In this document: positions 11,557 through 23,232 of the stretch, piece by piece
Numbering within the stretch: the stretch's first letter is position 1
Layout: each line of letters starts with the position of its first letter
Virus record (IMG/VR): IMGVR_UViG_3300027588_000004
Location: 1-38,074 of that record
DNA length: 38,074 nucleotides
Origin: a virus
Direction: 5' to 3' (one strand)
The notes under the pieces: generated by a model
Databases searched by the model: none
What the model was told of the DNA's origin: nothing
The model's input: only the letters and a program-made list of their open reading frames with translations
Made by a program: the position numbers and the translations under genes

Positions 11557-13098
11557 TCAGTCGGGGCTGAACTGATTCACACCAGAAGAGTAATTGGGTG
11601 TGCGCAGGAGACCGCGTGCATTGGGAGTCGCTGTGCCAGCCGGGACAGCAGACGGAGCTCTAGGAACCGGGATGCCGTCTGCATCCACCGCTACCGGGGT
11701 CCGGATCGCGCCAGAAGCGGAACGAGAAGGAGCGCCAGGAGTAGCACCAGGTGCAACGGCAGGGGCCTGCGGACGATTCGGGGGGAGAACCTCAACCTTG
11801 CGATCACCCACCATCACGTAGGCACGGCCCAGGTCGTCAGTCTTCACGACCGTGTCCACCTTGCCCTCTTGGATGGCTTTGGCCACGAGGTTGTTGGCGC
11901 GATCAGCGATCGCCACCGGGAGTAGCTCTTTGCCCTGGGTGTCGCGACTGTTGTTCAGCGCGTAGATGGAAAGCGTGGTGCCCAGGCGAGCGTTGTACTG
12001 CTGGCGCTTCACGTCGTAAGCCGCCTGCTGGTCAGGCGTCCAGTCACGCATCTGCTCAGGCGTGAGCTCTTTGGGGACGCCGATCAATCGGACTGCCTCG
12101 TTCAGGGCGCTGGTGTTGCGAGCCTGTACCGCATCGAAGTTGAACTTTTGTCCGGCGATTTGAGCCTGGCGTTCGGCAGCAGCAGTCTGGCGCTTGAGCA
12201 GCTCGAGCTGAAGGGTGTGCTGATTGGCGTTCTGTTTGAGCATCTCTCCGTGATACCACTTCTGGTCTTCCAGCACCGCCGACTTGTACGCCAGGTCGCC
12301 GGCAGCTTTCGCGACTTCGGTTTCACGCGCAAAGAAGTCCTTGGGATCCATCCGCTTTGCCATGATGTCCAGCATCGAGATCGGCGCGCCATCAGCGCCG
12401 GACAGGACAACGTCCTTCGTCTTCACCTTGGAGCCGGGGAAGATCTCTCGTTCCTGAACAGACCACGTGGCGCCCTGCGGCAGGGGTAGACCAGCCTTCT
12501 GAGCATCAGCCGACGCACGGGCGGGATCACCGTGGAGCGCGAAGTCCTGCATGATGGCGAGAGCGTCGTCCATCTTGGCATCACGGAAGCGCTTCATCAT
12601 GCCGAGCGATAGGTCAAGGCCGTCCTTGACGCTCACGTTCCCGCTTGCCAGGCCGGCAGCGTTCATCTCGCTGTACATGCGCTGCATGGCATCGAGGCGA
12701 GACATCTTCGGCTGAGCAGGAGCAGCAGGAGCCGCAGCAGCAGGAGCATCGCCGGGGACCGAAATGCCAGCTCGAGGGGCGGCAGGCATCGGAGCCTCGG
12801 GTGCTTCTCCACCACCAGGAGGCGCGATCGCAGGGCCGGTTGCGGGGGCGGCGGCACTGGCTGCATCGCCATCGCCATTGAGGTACGGGCTGTACTTCGC
12901 CGCGATCTCTTCCATCCTGCGACGGCCGGCGGCTTTGCTCTCAGCTTCATCAACCTCGAGCTTGCCTTTGCGGATGCCAAGGCGCGCAGCCTCGCGGCGC
13001 AGCTCAGAATCCTCCATCTCGGAGCGATGCTTCTCGCCCTTCATGTAGCCTTCGGTAAACGACCCGACAGCAGTTCCAAGTGCAGCAATACCAGCCAT
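11557..13098 (-). CDS. Internal virion protein (513 aa), gp15-position
   Basis: No confident family. The first 75 residues are helical and charged (GSFTEGYMKGEKHRSEMEDS), then comes an Ala/Pro/Gly-rich linker (about 75-135), then a long, mostly helical, Gln- and Ala-rich body (for example KQTAAAERQAQIAGQKFNFD) and a disordered Pro/Ala tail. There is no signal peptide or clear membrane span. The gene lies between the 411-aa protein (1-nt overlap, TAATG) and the 2811-aa giant, the order of T7 gp14-gp15-gp16, so I infer an ejected internal core protein. Low-complexity linkers make sequence-based assignment unreliable. Confidence 0.8.
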   Translation of the reverse strand: MAGIAALGTAVGSFTEGYMKGEKHRSEMEDSELRREAARLGIRKGKLEVDEAESKAAGRRRMEEIAAKYSPYLNGDGDAASAAAPATGPAIAPPGGGEAPEAPMPAAPRAGISVPGDAPAAAAPAAPAQPKMSRLDAMQRMYSEMNAAGLASGNVSVKDGLDLSLGMMKRFRDAKMDDALAIMQDFALHGDPARASADAQKAGLPLPQGATWSVQEREIFPGSKVKTKDVVLSGADGAPISMLDIMAKRMDPKDFFARETEVAKAAGDLAYKSAVLEDQKWYHGEMLKQNANQHTLQLELLKRQTAAAERQAQIAGQKFNFDAVQARNTSALNEAVRLIGVPKELTPEQMRDWTPDQQAAYDVKRQQYNARLGTTLSIYALNNSRDTQGKELLPVAIADRANNLVAKAIQEGKVDTVVKTDDLGRAYVMVGDRKVEVLPPNRPQAPAVAPGATPGAPSRSASGAIRTPVAVDADGIPVPRAPSAVPAGTATPNARGLLRTPNYSSGVNQFSPD

Positions 13099-14333
13099 TA
13101 CGCTCTCCCAATACCGCGGCGTTGCAGCGCTGCCGGGGTGTGATACTTTTCTTTGAGCTTGTCGAAGAACTCGAGGCCCTTCGCTTTCACAACGTCAGCG
13201 GGGATGACGTATTCGCCGTCGCTCAACATCGCGGGAACTTTGTCGTCCACCGGACCGCCGGGGCCATGCACCTTGCCGCCGTTGGCATAACTCAAGCCCA
13301 TGCGTCTGGCATCGACGTGACCGCCGTCTGCCAAGAAGGCGCCGAGGTCCTGGTTGCCGTAGTCGTTTCCGGTGCCGAAGCCGCCGTTCATGTTCATGGT
13401 GAAGTCATTCCAGGCGCCGCCAATACGACCGCTCAAGTTGCCGAAAGCATCCTGACCCATCTTGCTCGAGGCAAAGTTTCCAAGCCCGCTGAAGAAGCCA
13501 GAGGCGCCCTGCTGCTGGATTCCGTACATGCGCATGTTGTTGGCGAACGTGTCGTTGTACGTGGAGCCTGCTCCGCGGAATGCGCCAGCAGCTACCTGAG
13601 CTCCTGAGATGGACGGGCTCACTGCGCTGACCGCGTTGTTTACGCCGGCGCTGGAGACGCCAGACGAGGTGCCTGCGGTCTGGTTGCCCAGGCCGTAATA
13701 GTTCGCCGCTGTGTTCGGCATGTTGCGACCGAAGTTCGCCGCGCCGGCACGCAATGCAATCGCCTTGTCCATCGTGTCGAAGGCTGCGCCGGTCTGAGCG
13801 CCAGCAGAGGCAAGGGCCTCGTTGTTGTACAGCTTGGCGTTCTCTCGGGCGAAGGCGCCGCTATTAGGGTTAATACCCATACGCGACAGGGCGCGAGTGG
13901 ACTGGCCAGACGCGTTCGAGAAAGCCTGGTTTACGTTGGCTGCTGCGATGCCCTGGCGGCGCTGGATGTTCTCCTGTGAGTCGTAGCCCGTGGCGTCACG
14001 GACCATCTGCTCTTCGACAGGCTTGAACGTCTCTTTGTAGTACTGGTTCTGCTCGTCAGCGAACTGGCGCTGCTGACGCATGGACGGGATGAGCTCGCTC
14101 TGGAGCTGCTCGCGCAACGCCATGTCGCGCTGCTGCAAAGGCTTCAGCGTGTTGTTGTAGTAGTCCCTCTGGAACTCTAGCTGCTCTTTGCCCAGGTCGT
14201 ACTGGAGCTGCGCCGAGTCCTTCGCGGCCTGCGTTTGTTGAGCCGCAGCATTGGACGCGGCGTCCGACGCATTGCTCGAGGCCATATAGCCGACGACTGC
14301 CGACCCAACGATAGCGGTTGCAATTCCACTCAT
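13098..14333 (-). CDS. Internal virion/ejection protein with C-terminal SDGEYV motif (411 aa), gp14-position
   Basis: The N-terminus MSGIATAIVGSAVVGYMASS is a hydrophobic Gly/Ala/Val segment that could insert into membrane. It is followed by Ala/Gln-rich coiled coil (30-150) and a Gly/Asn/Ala/Ser-rich middle. The C-terminus has the phage signature GGKVHGPGGPVDDKVPAMLS then DGEYVIPADVV, a motif seen at the ends of many phage structural proteins. Small size, membrane-like start and position upstream of the 513- and 2811-aa proteins match ejection proteins such as T7 gp14 that form the outer-membrane pore; this is inference. ATG overlaps the stop of the cupin-SET gene (ATGA). Confidence 0.85.
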   Translation of the reverse strand: MSGIATAIVGSAVVGYMASSNASDAASNAAAQQTQAAKDSAQLQYDLGKEQLEFQRDYYNNTLKPLQQRDMALREQLQSELIPSMRQQRQFADEQNQYYKETFKPVEEQMVRDATGYDSQENIQRRQGIAAANVNQAFSNASGQSTRALSRMGINPNSGAFARENAKLYNNEALASAGAQTGAAFDTMDKAIALRAGAANFGRNMPNTAANYYGLGNQTAGTSSGVSSAGVNNAVSAVSPSISGAQVAAGAFRGAGSTYNDTFANNMRMYGIQQQGASGFFSGLGNFASSKMGQDAFGNLSGRIGGAWNDFTMNMNGGFGTGNDYGNQDLGAFLADGGHVDARRMGLSYANGGKVHGPGGPVDDKVPAMLSDGEYVIPADVVKAKGLEFFDKLKEKYHTPAALQRRGIGRA

Positions 14334-15238
14334 TCCAAACTCCCGATTCCAGACAGCCGCAAGGCTTGCCGATAGTCGATTGTGATTTCCTCTCCAGGCT
14401 GGCCACCGGTACAGCCAGCAATCTGGCGGGTGGCTACGAGGTCGATGTCTCCGTTCGGTCGCTTCACCATGATCGCGTTTGGCGCGACTGAGTGATTCGT
14501 GTACCGACCTGCCGGCGTGCGCTTGCCGTCTATCCGAGCCGGAGCAATGACCGCTCCTTCCGAGATATTGGCCGTGGCGAACACGCCTTTGCCCTCGATC
14601 GGAGAGTCGGCAACCATCATCGAGTAGCTGCCAAGCGGCATCGGGATTTGGTCATCGGTGTTCTCTGATTGCGCCCTGGCAATCTCGTGGGGTATGCCCA
14701 CCTCTGCAAGCAGAGCCAGGTAATCCTGGCGATCGGCCTCGTACCGCAAGGCCAACGCCTCTGCTCGTTCTTTCTGGTCCTGGGCCCAGGTGTCGCTCTT
14801 CTCGAGGTAGGTCGCCTCGAGCTTCTCAATGTCGGTCTCGGTCGTGGCATAGATGTTCTGCCACACCATTTCCTCGTGGACGTAGCCGATCTTGCGACCG
14901 GGTTTGCCGACAAACACCATCGGCGCCACCAGCTCGGTCGTCGTGCCGTTGTCGTTGAAGACGGTGACCCGCCCCTTGAGCATCACGTTCATGTGCTCAA
15001 AGCGCTGACGGTGGCCAACGGCCAGGATGCCGGCAGGAATGATGACTTCACGGATGTAGATCCCAGGACCAAAGCGGTGAACGACCTGAGCCTCAGCTTG
15101 CGGCATGCCCAGCATCGTGCCCTCTACCTCCTCAACGGATTTGCTCAGGGCAAAATCGCGAGCGAGCATCACCACATCCCGCTCGTCAGGGAGTTGTTGG
15201 GTGAGTACTTTGGTATTGGGTTCCTGAAGCTCGAGCAT
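14330..15238 (-). CDS. Cupin-SET domain fusion (predicted protein-lysine methyltransferase)
   Basis: Residues about 50-130 form a cupin-like beta barrel (IYIREVIIPAG, H76, H82 in EHMNVMLKGRVTVF, H121 in YVHEEM). A charged helical linker (130-195) follows. Residues 205-290 carry SET motifs: GKGVFA (216-221, SAM-binding start), RYTNHSVAPNA (245-255, the NHSxxPN signature) and GEEITIDY (282-289, ending in the catalytic-type Tyr289). No pre-SET cysteine cluster is present and the SET insert is short. SET enzymes transfer a methyl group from S-adenosylmethionine to lysine; the target could be a virion or host protein. The ATG at 15238 has an AGAGG site, and the gene sits between the fibre-assembly chaperone and the ejection proteins. 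Activity and substrate are inferred. Confidence 0.88.
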   Translation of the reverse strand: MLELQEPNTKVLTQQLPDERDVVMLARDFALSKSVEEVEGTMLGMPQAEAQVVHRFGPGIYIREVIIPAGILAVGHRQRFEHMNVMLKGRVTVFNDNGTTTELVAPMVFVGKPGRKIGYVHEEMVWQNIYATTETDIEKLEATYLEKSDTWAQDQKERAEALALRYEADRQDYLALLAEVGIPHEIARAQSENTDDQIPMPLGSYSMMVADSPIEGKGVFATANISEGAVIAPARIDGKRTPAGRYTNHSVAPNAIMVKRPNGDIDLVATRQIAGCTGGQPGEEITIDYRQALRLSGIGSLE

Positions 15239-15249
15239 GAAAAACCTCT

Positions 15250-15270
15250 GGCCGATTTTAGGTGGGGCTC
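15250..15270. repeat. 21-bp dispersed repeat, copy A
   Basis: GGCCGATTTTAGGTGGGG plus CTC. It matches 22732-22752 at 18 of 21 positions. It overlaps the last codons and stop of the fibre-assembly chaperone gene and lies 12 nt upstream of the cupin-SET start. Function unknown: a regulatory site or a recombination scar. Confidence 0.55.
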
Positions 15271-15725
15271 GGAGGTTCCGGCCAAGCTACGTCGGTTGGG
15301 AAGCCGGCCTGTTGAGGAACGTCGCGCAGGATCTGACGGTAGTCCTGCCAGGCGTTGTAGAGGGCGTCGCCCAGGCGCGCCTTGGCGGATATGGTGTCGG
15401 TCCAGTCTGACGCCGTGAGCAAGCCGTTGCGTTTGTCGCGAACGGTCTCAGCCCAGGCGTCCAGGTTCGGAGTTCTTGTGTCATGCCACGCGAACGTCTC
15501 GTTGCTCCACTCGTGGCCTGGGCCGGGACGCGCTTTCTTTATCTCGACTTGCTCGGACGTGTACGCGACCAGTTCTCCATTGCTCACGTAATGCAGCGCA
15601 GGAGATCCGACGCCATCAAGCAAACCTTTGCCTTCGCGCATTTGCGCATAGAAAGATTCGTCCGGGCACCTGCCAGTGATCTCAATCTCTCCAGTAGCGA
15701 TGTCGTAAACGATGTAGTTCTTCAT
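15258..15725 (-). CDS. Tail-fibre assembly chaperone-like protein (155 aa)
   Basis: The C-terminal 75 residues match the phage tail assembly chaperone family (Pfam Phage_tail_APC): RDKRNGLLTASDWTDTISAK, then WQDYRQILRDVPQQAGFPTD and VAWPEPPSPT. The N-terminus (MKNYIVYDIATGEIEITGRC) is the usual short beta domain of these proteins. They help fold or trimerise fibre tips and sit directly after the fibre gene they serve, which here is the 649-aa protein, 1 nt upstream. The first 80 residues are less typical. ATG start at 15725. Confidence 0.85.
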   Translation of the reverse strand: MKNYIVYDIATGEIEITGRCPDESFYAQMREGKGLLDGVGSPALHYVSNGELVAYTSEQVEIKKARPGPGHEWSNETFAWHDTRTPNLDAWAETVRDKRNGLLTASDWTDTISAKARLGDALYNAWQDYRQILRDVPQQAGFPTDVAWPEPPSPT

Positions 15726-15726
15726 A

Positions 15727-17676
15727 TCAAACAGTCGCCTGATAAGCGAAAGATTGAGTTCCGCTCATATAGAAATAGTCACCATTGGCCATGACGGCGT
15801 TTTTCCACAGCGTTCCGTTTCCATACCACCATCTGCCGCGGAAGTAGCTGTAAGTCGTGTTGACCTTGAGTCTGTAAGTCCCAGGCGCCAGCGTTTGTAA
15901 TGCCGACATTGACCACGTCGTTCCCCACTGGTAGGTGCCGTGGACATTCATGTACTGGTTCCAAATCGATCCAGTGGAAACACCATCTTTGTACAGCTCG
16001 AATATGAAGTAACAGTCAATCAACCTGTTGTCAGACGCAGGGATGCCGTCGTAATTGGCGTTCATTGTCCACGTCGAGCCCCACATAATCGGGCCTCCTC
16101 TGCTGACGGTGAACGCTAGTATTTCAACTGTCTGACTCCCCAATAGCTGGATGTAATAACTGTAGCCTGATGTCGTTGCGTTAGTGAGTCCGTTGATATA
16201 TAGACCGCTGTTGTTCCAGACGACGCTGGTCGATCCATTACCCATAACCACACGACCATCGCTATACAAGCGAACGCCGCTTGTTCCGCTGGTCATGATT
16301 GTGTTGTTGGTGGAGTCAATCGACGGGTTGTTCCCGGCAATGACGCTACCGCGCACAGTGACGTTATTGAACTCGGCGCCGCCGTCCTTGTTCACGCTCC
16401 AGCCGGCAGAACCGCTGACGTAGTTGGGCGAGCTGATGCCGTTTGCATCAATGATGTTCTGACCGATGTATCCCGCAAGAGCGTTGATCGTTCCCTTGAC
16501 GCTCAGGTTTGTTCCGTTCCACAACAGATTCTGGTCGGGCGAGCCAATGAAGAACTGGTTGGCTCCGCCATATGCGCCGAGCAAATAGCCGGTGCCGAAG
16601 CTGGAAGTTCCAGGAGCCGAACCAGCAGGGTTGACGCCACCGTAGATGTAGCCGGTGTTGACATTAATTGCCGCGGTTAGATTCCCTGCCGTGATCTTGT
16701 CTGCCGTTAGGTCGGAGATCTTGGCATTGGTGATGGCGCCGTTCTGAATCGCGGCATTCCCAACGGCCAGGTTGCCGATCTTGGCCGAGGTAATGGCGGC
16801 GTCCGCGATTTGGGCAGATCCGATTGCGGCATTGGCGATAAGTGCCGTGGTGATTGCGCCGGTTTGAATTGCAGCAGTTCCGACAGCCAGGTTGGCGATC
16901 TTCGTTGCGGTCACAGACGAGTCCGCGAGCTTCGCCGCATCGACGGCCAGGTTTGCGAGCTTGGTGTTACCGATCAGCGAATCAGCGATCTTCGTCGGAT
17001 CGGTGATGACCGCCATATTGGCGTTCGCCAGTAATCCAGTGATCTTGCTACCGCCAAGATCAATCGCGCCGGATGCAATCTTGTCAGCAGTGATGATCAG
17101 GGGAGAAAGATCGACGCCTCCCACCAGTCCAGTCGATGCGACTGTGCCAGCGGTTGCGTTATACGGGCCAGAGACATTTGCTGCTGATACAAATCGAATC
17201 CAGTAGTAGTAGGTCTGGTTCGTCTTGCCAACTGGATCGGAGTACAGGTTGGTGATCGTCGTACCGATCCTGACAGCGCTACCAATCGAATCGGTAGAAG
17301 CGCGCCAGATCTCAGTGTACGCGTGATTTTGGTATGACGCTCCGGTCCATGCCAGGTATATGCTGGTCATGCCGGAGGTGATCGTGAGCCCGGTAGGTTG
17401 GCTCGGCGTTGTCAGATCGGCCGTCGGGTCATAACCGGTATCGACCGTTGGCGGAACTATTACCGGAACCCTGGTCCCGTTGGTGAGAGTTGATGTACCT
17501 CCGGCTGAGACAACGCTCACATCGGTAAGGTCACGCCAGGTGACGTACTGATCAAGGGTATCGCCAAGAAGACCCTCTCGGACCTGAAGCACGTTTTTGA
17601 CGGCACGCAGCACCTCCGTGACGTTGTCATCACGAACGTCTGGGATTGCCGCGACCTTAGTCTCTCTGGTGCTCAT
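15727..17676 (-). CDS. Tail fibre/host-specificity protein with FN3 domain and A-I-rich repeats (649 aa)
   Basis: The N-terminus (EVLRAVKNVLQVREGLLGDT) resembles the base of phage tip/fibre proteins. Residues about 90-185 look like a fibronectin type III domain (SQPTGLTITSGMTSIYLAW then TYYYWIRFVSAANVSGPYN). Residues 210-330 are a run of imperfect repeats of the kind NLAVGTAAIQTGAITTALIA, likely a beta-helical shaft. Beta-rich segments and a Trp/Tyr-rich C-terminus (WWYGNGTLWKNAVMANGDYF) follow, possibly the receptor-binding head, comparable to lambda J C-terminal regions. It overlaps the upstream 540-aa gene (ATGA) and is followed by a fibre-assembly chaperone. Receptor unknown. Confidence 0.85.
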   Translation of the reverse strand: MSTRETKVAAIPDVRDDNVTEVLRAVKNVLQVREGLLGDTLDQYVTWRDLTDVSVVSAGGTSTLTNGTRVPVIVPPTVDTGYDPTADLTTPSQPTGLTITSGMTSIYLAWTGASYQNHAYTEIWRASTDSIGSAVRIGTTITNLYSDPVGKTNQTYYYWIRFVSAANVSGPYNATAGTVASTGLVGGVDLSPLIITADKIASGAIDLGGSKITGLLANANMAVITDPTKIADSLIGNTKLANLAVDAAKLADSSVTATKIANLAVGTAAIQTGAITTALIANAAIGSAQIADAAITSAKIGNLAVGNAAIQNGAITNAKISDLTADKITAGNLTAAINVNTGYIYGGVNPAGSAPGTSSFGTGYLLGAYGGANQFFIGSPDQNLLWNGTNLSVKGTINALAGYIGQNIIDANGISSPNYVSGSAGWSVNKDGGAEFNNVTVRGSVIAGNNPSIDSTNNTIMTSGTSGVRLYSDGRVVMGNGSTSVVWNNSGLYINGLTNATTSGYSYYIQLLGSQTVEILAFTVSRGGPIMWGSTWTMNANYDGIPASDNRLIDCYFIFELYKDGVSTGSIWNQYMNVHGTYQWGTTWSMSALQTLAPGTYRLKVNTTYSYFRGRWWYGNGTLWKNAVMANGDYFYMSGTQSFAYQATV

Positions 17677-22887: not shown

Positions 22888-23232
22888 TCAGCCGCCGGCT
22901 ACCGGGGCTGGGGTAACCCCGTTTGGAATCATATCGGGGTCGAGAATCTCGCCGGTTCCTTGGTCTCGCAACGCGTGGATGCAATACGCCACCGTGTCGT
23001 CCTCGAGCGCGACCAACTCGTGGATCTTGTCCTTGCGGATGTAGATCATGTGCGGGGCGGTAAACTCGCTCACCCGGCCCTCCACGGTGACCCTCAGCGA
23101 GCCCTTGGCCAGAAGCGTCAGGTGGTCGAACTGGTGCGTGTGGCCGAGCTCGGTGTCGCCACTTTTGGTGAAGCGCATCATCCGCGAGTAGATGTTGGCT
23201 ACGCTTCCTATCTTCACTTGGGGTTGGTTCAT
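22888..23232 (-). CDS. Single-domain cupin protein (114 aa)
   Basis: The core GHTHQFDHLTLLAKGSLRVT is cupin motif 1 (H31, H33, H37 as probable metal ligands, G44), with motif 2 around PHMIYIRKDKIHELVALEDD (H71). The usual motif-1 Glu is replaced (FDH). Stand-alone cupins of this type are found near phage tail-fibre genes, and whether they bind metal or sugar or serve as enzymes is not known. The ATG overlaps the stop of the 91-aa gene (ATGA); a terminator follows. A second cupin domain occurs in the window fused to SET. Confidence 0.9.
   Translation of the reverse strand: MNQPQVKIGSVANIYSRMMRFTKSGDTELGHTHQFDHLTLLAKGSLRVTVEGRVSEFTAPHMIYIRKDKIHELVALEDDTVAYCIHALRDQGTGEILDPDMIPNGVTPAPVAGG

Follow-up and report, generated by a model that had tools for sequence, protein, structure and literature searches.

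A phage protein combining a short-tail-fibre-type cupin with a mini-SET domain: a candidate lysine methyltransferase of the tail/ejection module

Introduction

Research on SET methyltransferases has centred on histone writers and on effectors secreted by bacteria. In SET enzymes, a GxG motif and an Asn-His pair contact S-adenosylmethionine (SAM), the tyrosine of a DY motif is the catalytic residue, and the SET-I region normally makes up much of the substrate groove. MLL1/KMT2A, EZH2 and PBCV-1 vSET have in common with the phage SET domain considered here the fold (Z 9.3-10.2) and the GxG, RYxNHS and E..DY motifs. The phage domain differs from all three in its short SET-I, in an RTxxG motif, in a GCxGG insert found in the clade of the protein described below and in its fusion to a cupin; no post-SET zinc site is seen in it.

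Among phages, a SET-domain ORF is listed, with no function given, in a Stenotrophomonas phage paper. Stand-alone mini-SETs of about 100 residues, with an RTPxG...NHS arrangement, a GxG-to-NH spacing of 36-37 residues and matches to the Pfam SET profile, are found in cyanophages P-RSM6 and P-SSM7 and in pelagiphage Kolga (L086:3968-4276, L087:3974-4273 and L088:3977-4276 for the pelagiphage and the two cyanophages). They are not fused to a cupin and occupy gene neighbourhoods other than those of the cupin-SET proteins, one cyanophage gene adjoining nrdB and another lying beside baseplate genes. Conversely, the short tail fibre cupins of BPP-1 (Bbp23), Vibrio phage 234P9 (gp12), VvAW1 (gp04) and Shewanella phage X14 (gp38) have an N-terminal cupin 23-45% identical to that of the fusion and no SET domain, and their genes, too, mostly precede the first ejection gene.

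The two domains occur together, in the same order, in PHROG 34170, examples of which are Rhodoferax phage P26218 gp30 and the Manatee Spring podovirus protein UOF81456.1, with records labelled as hypothetical, as ‘similar to putative tail fiber protein’ or as ‘pbcV-1 histone H3-lys 27 methyltransferase structure’. The family is thus present in databases with no function attached, and neither a description of a cupin-SET phage protein nor a paper bringing together SET domain, cupin and phage was found in the open-access literature searched. What is new here is not the SET methyltransferase, which is already known, but a phage cupin-SET protein with an apparently rebuilt substrate region.

The cupin-SET gene and its neighbourhood

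The window, namely the whole 38,074-nucleotide stretch of IMG/VR record IMGVR_UViG_3300027588_000004, encodes the fusion at 14330..15238 on the minus strand (as are all parts of the gene and the late genes given below) as an ORF of 302 residues with an ATG start. The protein is a full-length member of PHROG 34170 (E 1.1e-91, residues 32-298 on positions 17-287 of the 296 of the profile), and the motifs GKGVF, RYTNHSVAPNA and GEEITIDY, recognized in the initial annotation, are all present, Y289 being the tyrosine of the last one. An RmlC/cupin-like barrel (residues 47-131, 14846..15100) is connected by a linker (residues 135-195, 14654..14836), helical according to DSSP of the AlphaFold2 model, to the mini-SET domain (residues 203-296, 14351..14632). 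The first half of the protein matches PHROG 12032 ‘short tail fiber protein’ (E 7.9e-32) and PHROG 24280 ‘tail fiber adhesin’ (E 4.6e-26), the barrel being the same domain as the podovirus ‘short tail fibre’ protein exemplified by Bbp23. An NCBIfam search with the window protein gave no match, and a PDB search with its single sequence returned weak cupin matches only, as did the one with Bbp23.

The surrounding genes form a podovirus-type late operon, and the integrase at 24-1034 suggests that the phage is temperate. Upstream of the fusion are a tail-fibre assembly chaperone (155 aa, 15258..15725; PF16778, E 2.3e-20) and a tail fibre or tail-tip protein (649 aa, 15727..17676; PHROG 496, PF09327). 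The next gene, which shares 4 nt with the end of the cupin-SET gene, encodes an ejection-protein-like virion protein (411 aa, 13098..14333; PHROG 8003 virion structural, E 3.5e-44, and a weak match to phrog_21132, ‘DNA ejection’). The placement of the gene between fibre and ejection genes, as originally proposed, is therefore correct. A GPGGPVDDKVPAMLSDGEYV motif, which is otherwise matched in tape-measure proteins and is absent from the sister phage L261, closes the C-terminal third of this protein.

The SET domain

By profile, motifs and fold, the window protein is a member of the SET superfamily. It matches PF00856 over residues 243-289 with E 1.8e-7 and 32.0 bits, against a Pfam gathering cut-off of 22.4, and the same profile is matched by all of the 57 relatives (46-65% identical to the window protein) that were aligned with it (E up to 0.1; best 9.4e-10). 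When the profile of this alignment was compared with the PDB, MLL1 was found at E 1e-5, in an alignment that takes in the GxG half as well as the NHS...DY half. In the AlphaFold2 model obtained with the alignment (mean pLDDT 88.1, pTM 0.83), residues 200-290 overlay the SET domains of MLL1 (7u5v_A; VIA-align Z 10.2, 1.9 Å over 80 residues, 34% identity) and of vSET (3kma_A; Z 9.3, 2.0 Å over 80 residues, 31% identity). Invariant in the 57 sequences are G216 and G218 of the SAM-binding GxG motif of SET-N (G216-K-G218, 14585..14593), R245, T247, the N248 and H249 of the SAM-binding/knot motif (N248-H249-S250 of RYTNHS, 14489..14497), N254 and the whole of GEEITIDY (residues 282-289, 14372..14395), including E284, D288 and the catalytic-type Y289. 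Profile search, structure prediction and conservation thus all bear out the short SET domain of the initial annotation, with SAM-binding and catalytic motifs intact, the pocket of the model having been assessed from the identity of its residues rather than from its geometry.

The domain, of about 94 residues, is a mini-SET in which approximately 20-30 residues of SET-I are absent. The distance between GxG and NH is 32 residues in 99 of the 102 phage loci in which the motif was matched and 36-37 in the other three, and an RTxxG motif precedes NH in 98 of them; in 16 bacterial SETs matched by the same profile, which were drawn by a scan for the GEEITIDY/TNH pattern and are not an unbiased survey, the distance is 52-64 residues and RTxxG is never found. 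Since SET-N and SET-C are not separated by a canonical-length SET-I in these phage loci, the phage domain is assigned to the SET superfamily only, and not to the histone-type subfamilies (MLL, EZH2, vSET). A six-residue GCxGG insert before GEEITIDY characterizes the clade of the window protein and is absent in Pseudoalteromonas phage PH1 and at loci L243 and L260.

Cupin-SET is under purifying selection, with a dN/dS of approximately 0.1 (pooled pairwise values of 0.09 for the cupin, 0.08 for the linker and 0.11 for the SET part). We infer that the mini-SET is, with high probability, an active SAM-dependent enzyme.

The cupin domain and the modularity of the fusion

The barrel claimed in the initial annotation is confirmed by the PHROG matches and by the overlay of residues 47-131 on cupins of the PpnP/DUF1255 type (VIA-align, Z ~9.6); for the H76, H82 and H121 listed with it, the hint of a metal site is weak. 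H76 and H82 are found in 55 of the 57 aligned relatives, H121 in only 28, and the pattern of metal-ligand histidines is not kept in the SET-less, cupin-only relatives; the residues invariant in all 57 are E122, W126 and N128. The Cupin_2 profile is matched by two of the 57, weakly (best E 0.02). On these grounds, a metal-binding cupin enzyme of the Cupin_2 type was rejected, no support is left for a metal-type ligand-binding domain, and the cupin is read as probably structural. Near its lysis genes, the window encodes one more small cupin (114 aa, 22888-23232, minus strand), which has the motif GHTHQFDH and shows a weak similarity to the short-tail-fibre PHROGs named above.

The fusion had been regarded as unusual; it turns out to be a recurrent and abundant phage family, named as PHROG 34170 but uncharacterized, that is present on more than 130 viral contigs. 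By tblastn, 64 phage records were found, eight of which cover at least 80% of the query, with most of the others matching the cupin part only; the latter include Bbp23 of BPP-1 and proteins of Shewanella phages and of numerous Vibrio phages. Relatives are encoded on 135 IMG/VR stretches, from which 80 loci were kept; a further scan that started from SET-only sequences also gave 80 loci, none of which scored as SET without cupin. As the cupin is common to many phages that have no SET, such as BPP-1 and the Vibrio phages, the SET domain is an optional add-on. Phage L261 is a case in point: its hub and ejection proteins are 49% and 46% identical to those of the window, yet it encodes the cupin only. 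In phages whose head-closure set is another one, of P22-like type, the cupin-SET gene nevertheless reaches 65% identity. In the type strain of Paraburkholderia ferrariae (NBRC 106233), cupin and SET are encoded by separate genes that overlap by 4 nt (ATGA), the split falling in the linker; the pair is found at L181:7671-9118 (L245:9230-10677), and the SET chain is extended at its C-terminus by about 90 residues.

Cupin-only and many cupin-SET proteins end in a short tail with a cysteine (LCQ, LCLG, CHG or CLE; C-termini at L090:5372, L091:5561, L092:5447, L094:5381 and L003:6738), so that SET seems to have been inserted before the tail; the window protein lacks this cysteine.

Linkage to ejection genes

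Among the loci for which the next gene was found, its start lies mostly between −15 and +5 nt from the stop of the cupin or cupin-SET gene. Its product is usually annotated or recognizable as a DNA-ejection protein, and it is labelled as DNA ejection in the annotated genomes of P26218, PH1, 234P9 and VvAW1. BPP-1, in which a small gene occupies the place after the cupin, is different. This nearly universal linkage and the similarity of the cupin half to ‘short tail fibre’ PHROGs both support the association with a virion/ejection operon, first noticed in the window. In BPP-1, a GNAT acetyltransferase gene (bbp24, PF00583) directly precedes the cupin gene bbp23 (L004:7477-8396), which would place another possible protein-modifying enzyme there.

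A target lysine was sought by co-variation in 119 downstream ejection-type proteins, 113 of which accompany a SET and only six do not, which makes it a weak test: no lysine is invariant or tracks with SET. The few lysine-rich columns reach about 40% Lys and are neither invariant nor SET-specific, so that no target lysine is proposed.

Capsid-less islands

In bacterial genomes, the cupin-SET gene is also found on integrated islands with no recognizable capsid, portal or terminase gene near it (L242/L177, L243, L245/L181 and L246). That of L242/L177, which in L242 adjoins a tRNA-Ser gene, encodes an integrase, a DUF5906 primase, the cupin-SET, an ejection protein and an SLT protein; in L243, an integrase beside tRNA-Leu is accompanied by an ejection protein, the cupin-SET and a helicase; L246 (L176) has an integrase beside tRNA-Val, a primase, the cupin-SET and three ejection-type genes. 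The P. ferrariae island (L245/L181) carries replication genes, the split cupin and SET genes and an integrase beside tmRNA, and no ejection gene is recognizable beside the pair. No fibre gene was found on the capsid-less islands. At locus L260, the same gene is within an apparently full prophage.

The terminase and portal check of the islands was made with two families, TerL (phrog_2) and P22-portal, and could therefore miss a divergent packaging gene. In genome G001, the only matches to either family sit in a separate, cupin-only prophage; neither was matched in P. ferrariae, and genome G003 gave one weak TerL match on another contig. The islands of L243 and L245, although inserted at different sites, have in common the integrase (59%) and the helicase (approx. 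53%). The sole convincing att repeat is that of L242, where 14 bp of the end of the tRNA-Ser gene recur exactly; none was found at the tmRNA and tRNA-Val islands. A shared ‘protein X’ was considered as a hallmark of the islands and dropped, since the proteins have only a short motif in common. Cupin-SET is rare: when 399 genomes from the order to which G001 belongs were sampled, it was matched (E up to 1e-30) in one, G001 itself. The islands could be satellites or decayed prophages, with the recurrence of the gene set speaking for satellites; they are possibly phage satellites carrying their own injection module.

Proposed function

The explanation that we consider the best, with a probability somewhat short of even, is that the cupin-SET protein of the tail/ejection module methylates one or more lysines of a tail/ejection-complex protein during virion assembly, with the cupin positioning the enzyme. 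In a temperate podovirus, the barrel would be a structural component of the ‘short tail fibre’ type, which is placed before the first ejection protein and may hold the enzyme at the tail/ejection assembly. The mini-SET would be a SAM-dependent protein lysine methyltransferase, with a peptide groove rebuilt around a short RTxxG hairpin that replaces SET-I, and its substrate would be lysine(s) on a tail/ejection-complex protein from the same operon, methylated while the virion assembles. Taken by itself, the proposal that a virion protein is the target has about an even chance of being correct. In its favour, the cupin-SET gene of the islands is in most cases accompanied by one to three genes for ejection proteins, and no fibre gene was found there. 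Against it are the adjacent ejection protein, with no invariant or SET-tracking lysine, the cupin-only sisters such as L261, which manage without SET with homologous ejection proteins (E1, 46% identity), the absence of the canonical SET-I substrate platform and the P. ferrariae island, which keeps cupin and SET with no recognizable ejection gene.

The main rival is host-directed methylation by a virion-borne enzyme: the cupin would bring an active SET into or onto the next host along with the ejection proteins, where a nucleoid protein, an envelope protein or a defence component might be methylated. The linkage to ejection genes fits this proposal equally well; cupin-SET is carried by temperate phages and integrated islands, the stand-alone mini-SETs of cyanophages sit outside a podovirus ejection module, and several of the bacterial SET proteins that have been studied methylate host proteins (review PMC10117894). 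No delivery signal is seen, however, and the likeness of the cupin to tail proteins is one of homology; delivery to the host is judged unlikely, if clearly worth considering.

If catalysis had been lost, the SET lobe could be a structural module, SAM-binding or an inactive beta-clip, that stabilizes a tail protein, as the reduction of SET-I and the optional presence of the lobe on a structural protein might indicate. This is improbable: Y289, the GxG and NH motifs and the acidic E/D residues do not vary among the 57 divergent relatives, dN/dS shows a constraint on SET like that on the cupin, and SET can be a separate gene; its production as a chain of its own from a gene with a 4-nt overlap is as expected of an enzyme and not of a purely structural lobe. 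Self-modification, by which SET would methylate the cupin-SET oligomer to tune assembly (e.g. at K147, at the cupin-linker boundary, or at K116, both invariant in the 57 relatives), is very unlikely. Many relatives that have no SET also retain a lysine near K116 (G-x-KR pattern), so that this lysine is probably structural.

Conclusion

Returning to the preferred reading, methylation of a tail/ejection-complex protein, its extension to the whole family can be offered only as a tentative and rather doubtful proposal: that a widespread clade of podoviruses, and perhaps of satellites, uses a tail-anchored lysine methyltransferase to modify its own ejection or tail proteins, which would make lysine methylation part of how the DNA-injection machine is built or fired. 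Cultured entry points are Rhodoferax phage P26218, Pseudoalteromonas phage PH1 and the Paraburkholderia ferrariae type strain. As a minimal natural SET, of about 94 residues and with almost no SET-I, the domain offers a way of asking how much of the fold lysine methylation requires. If the proposal is true, protein methylation, for which no such report was found in the literature searched, would become part of phage assembly or injection.
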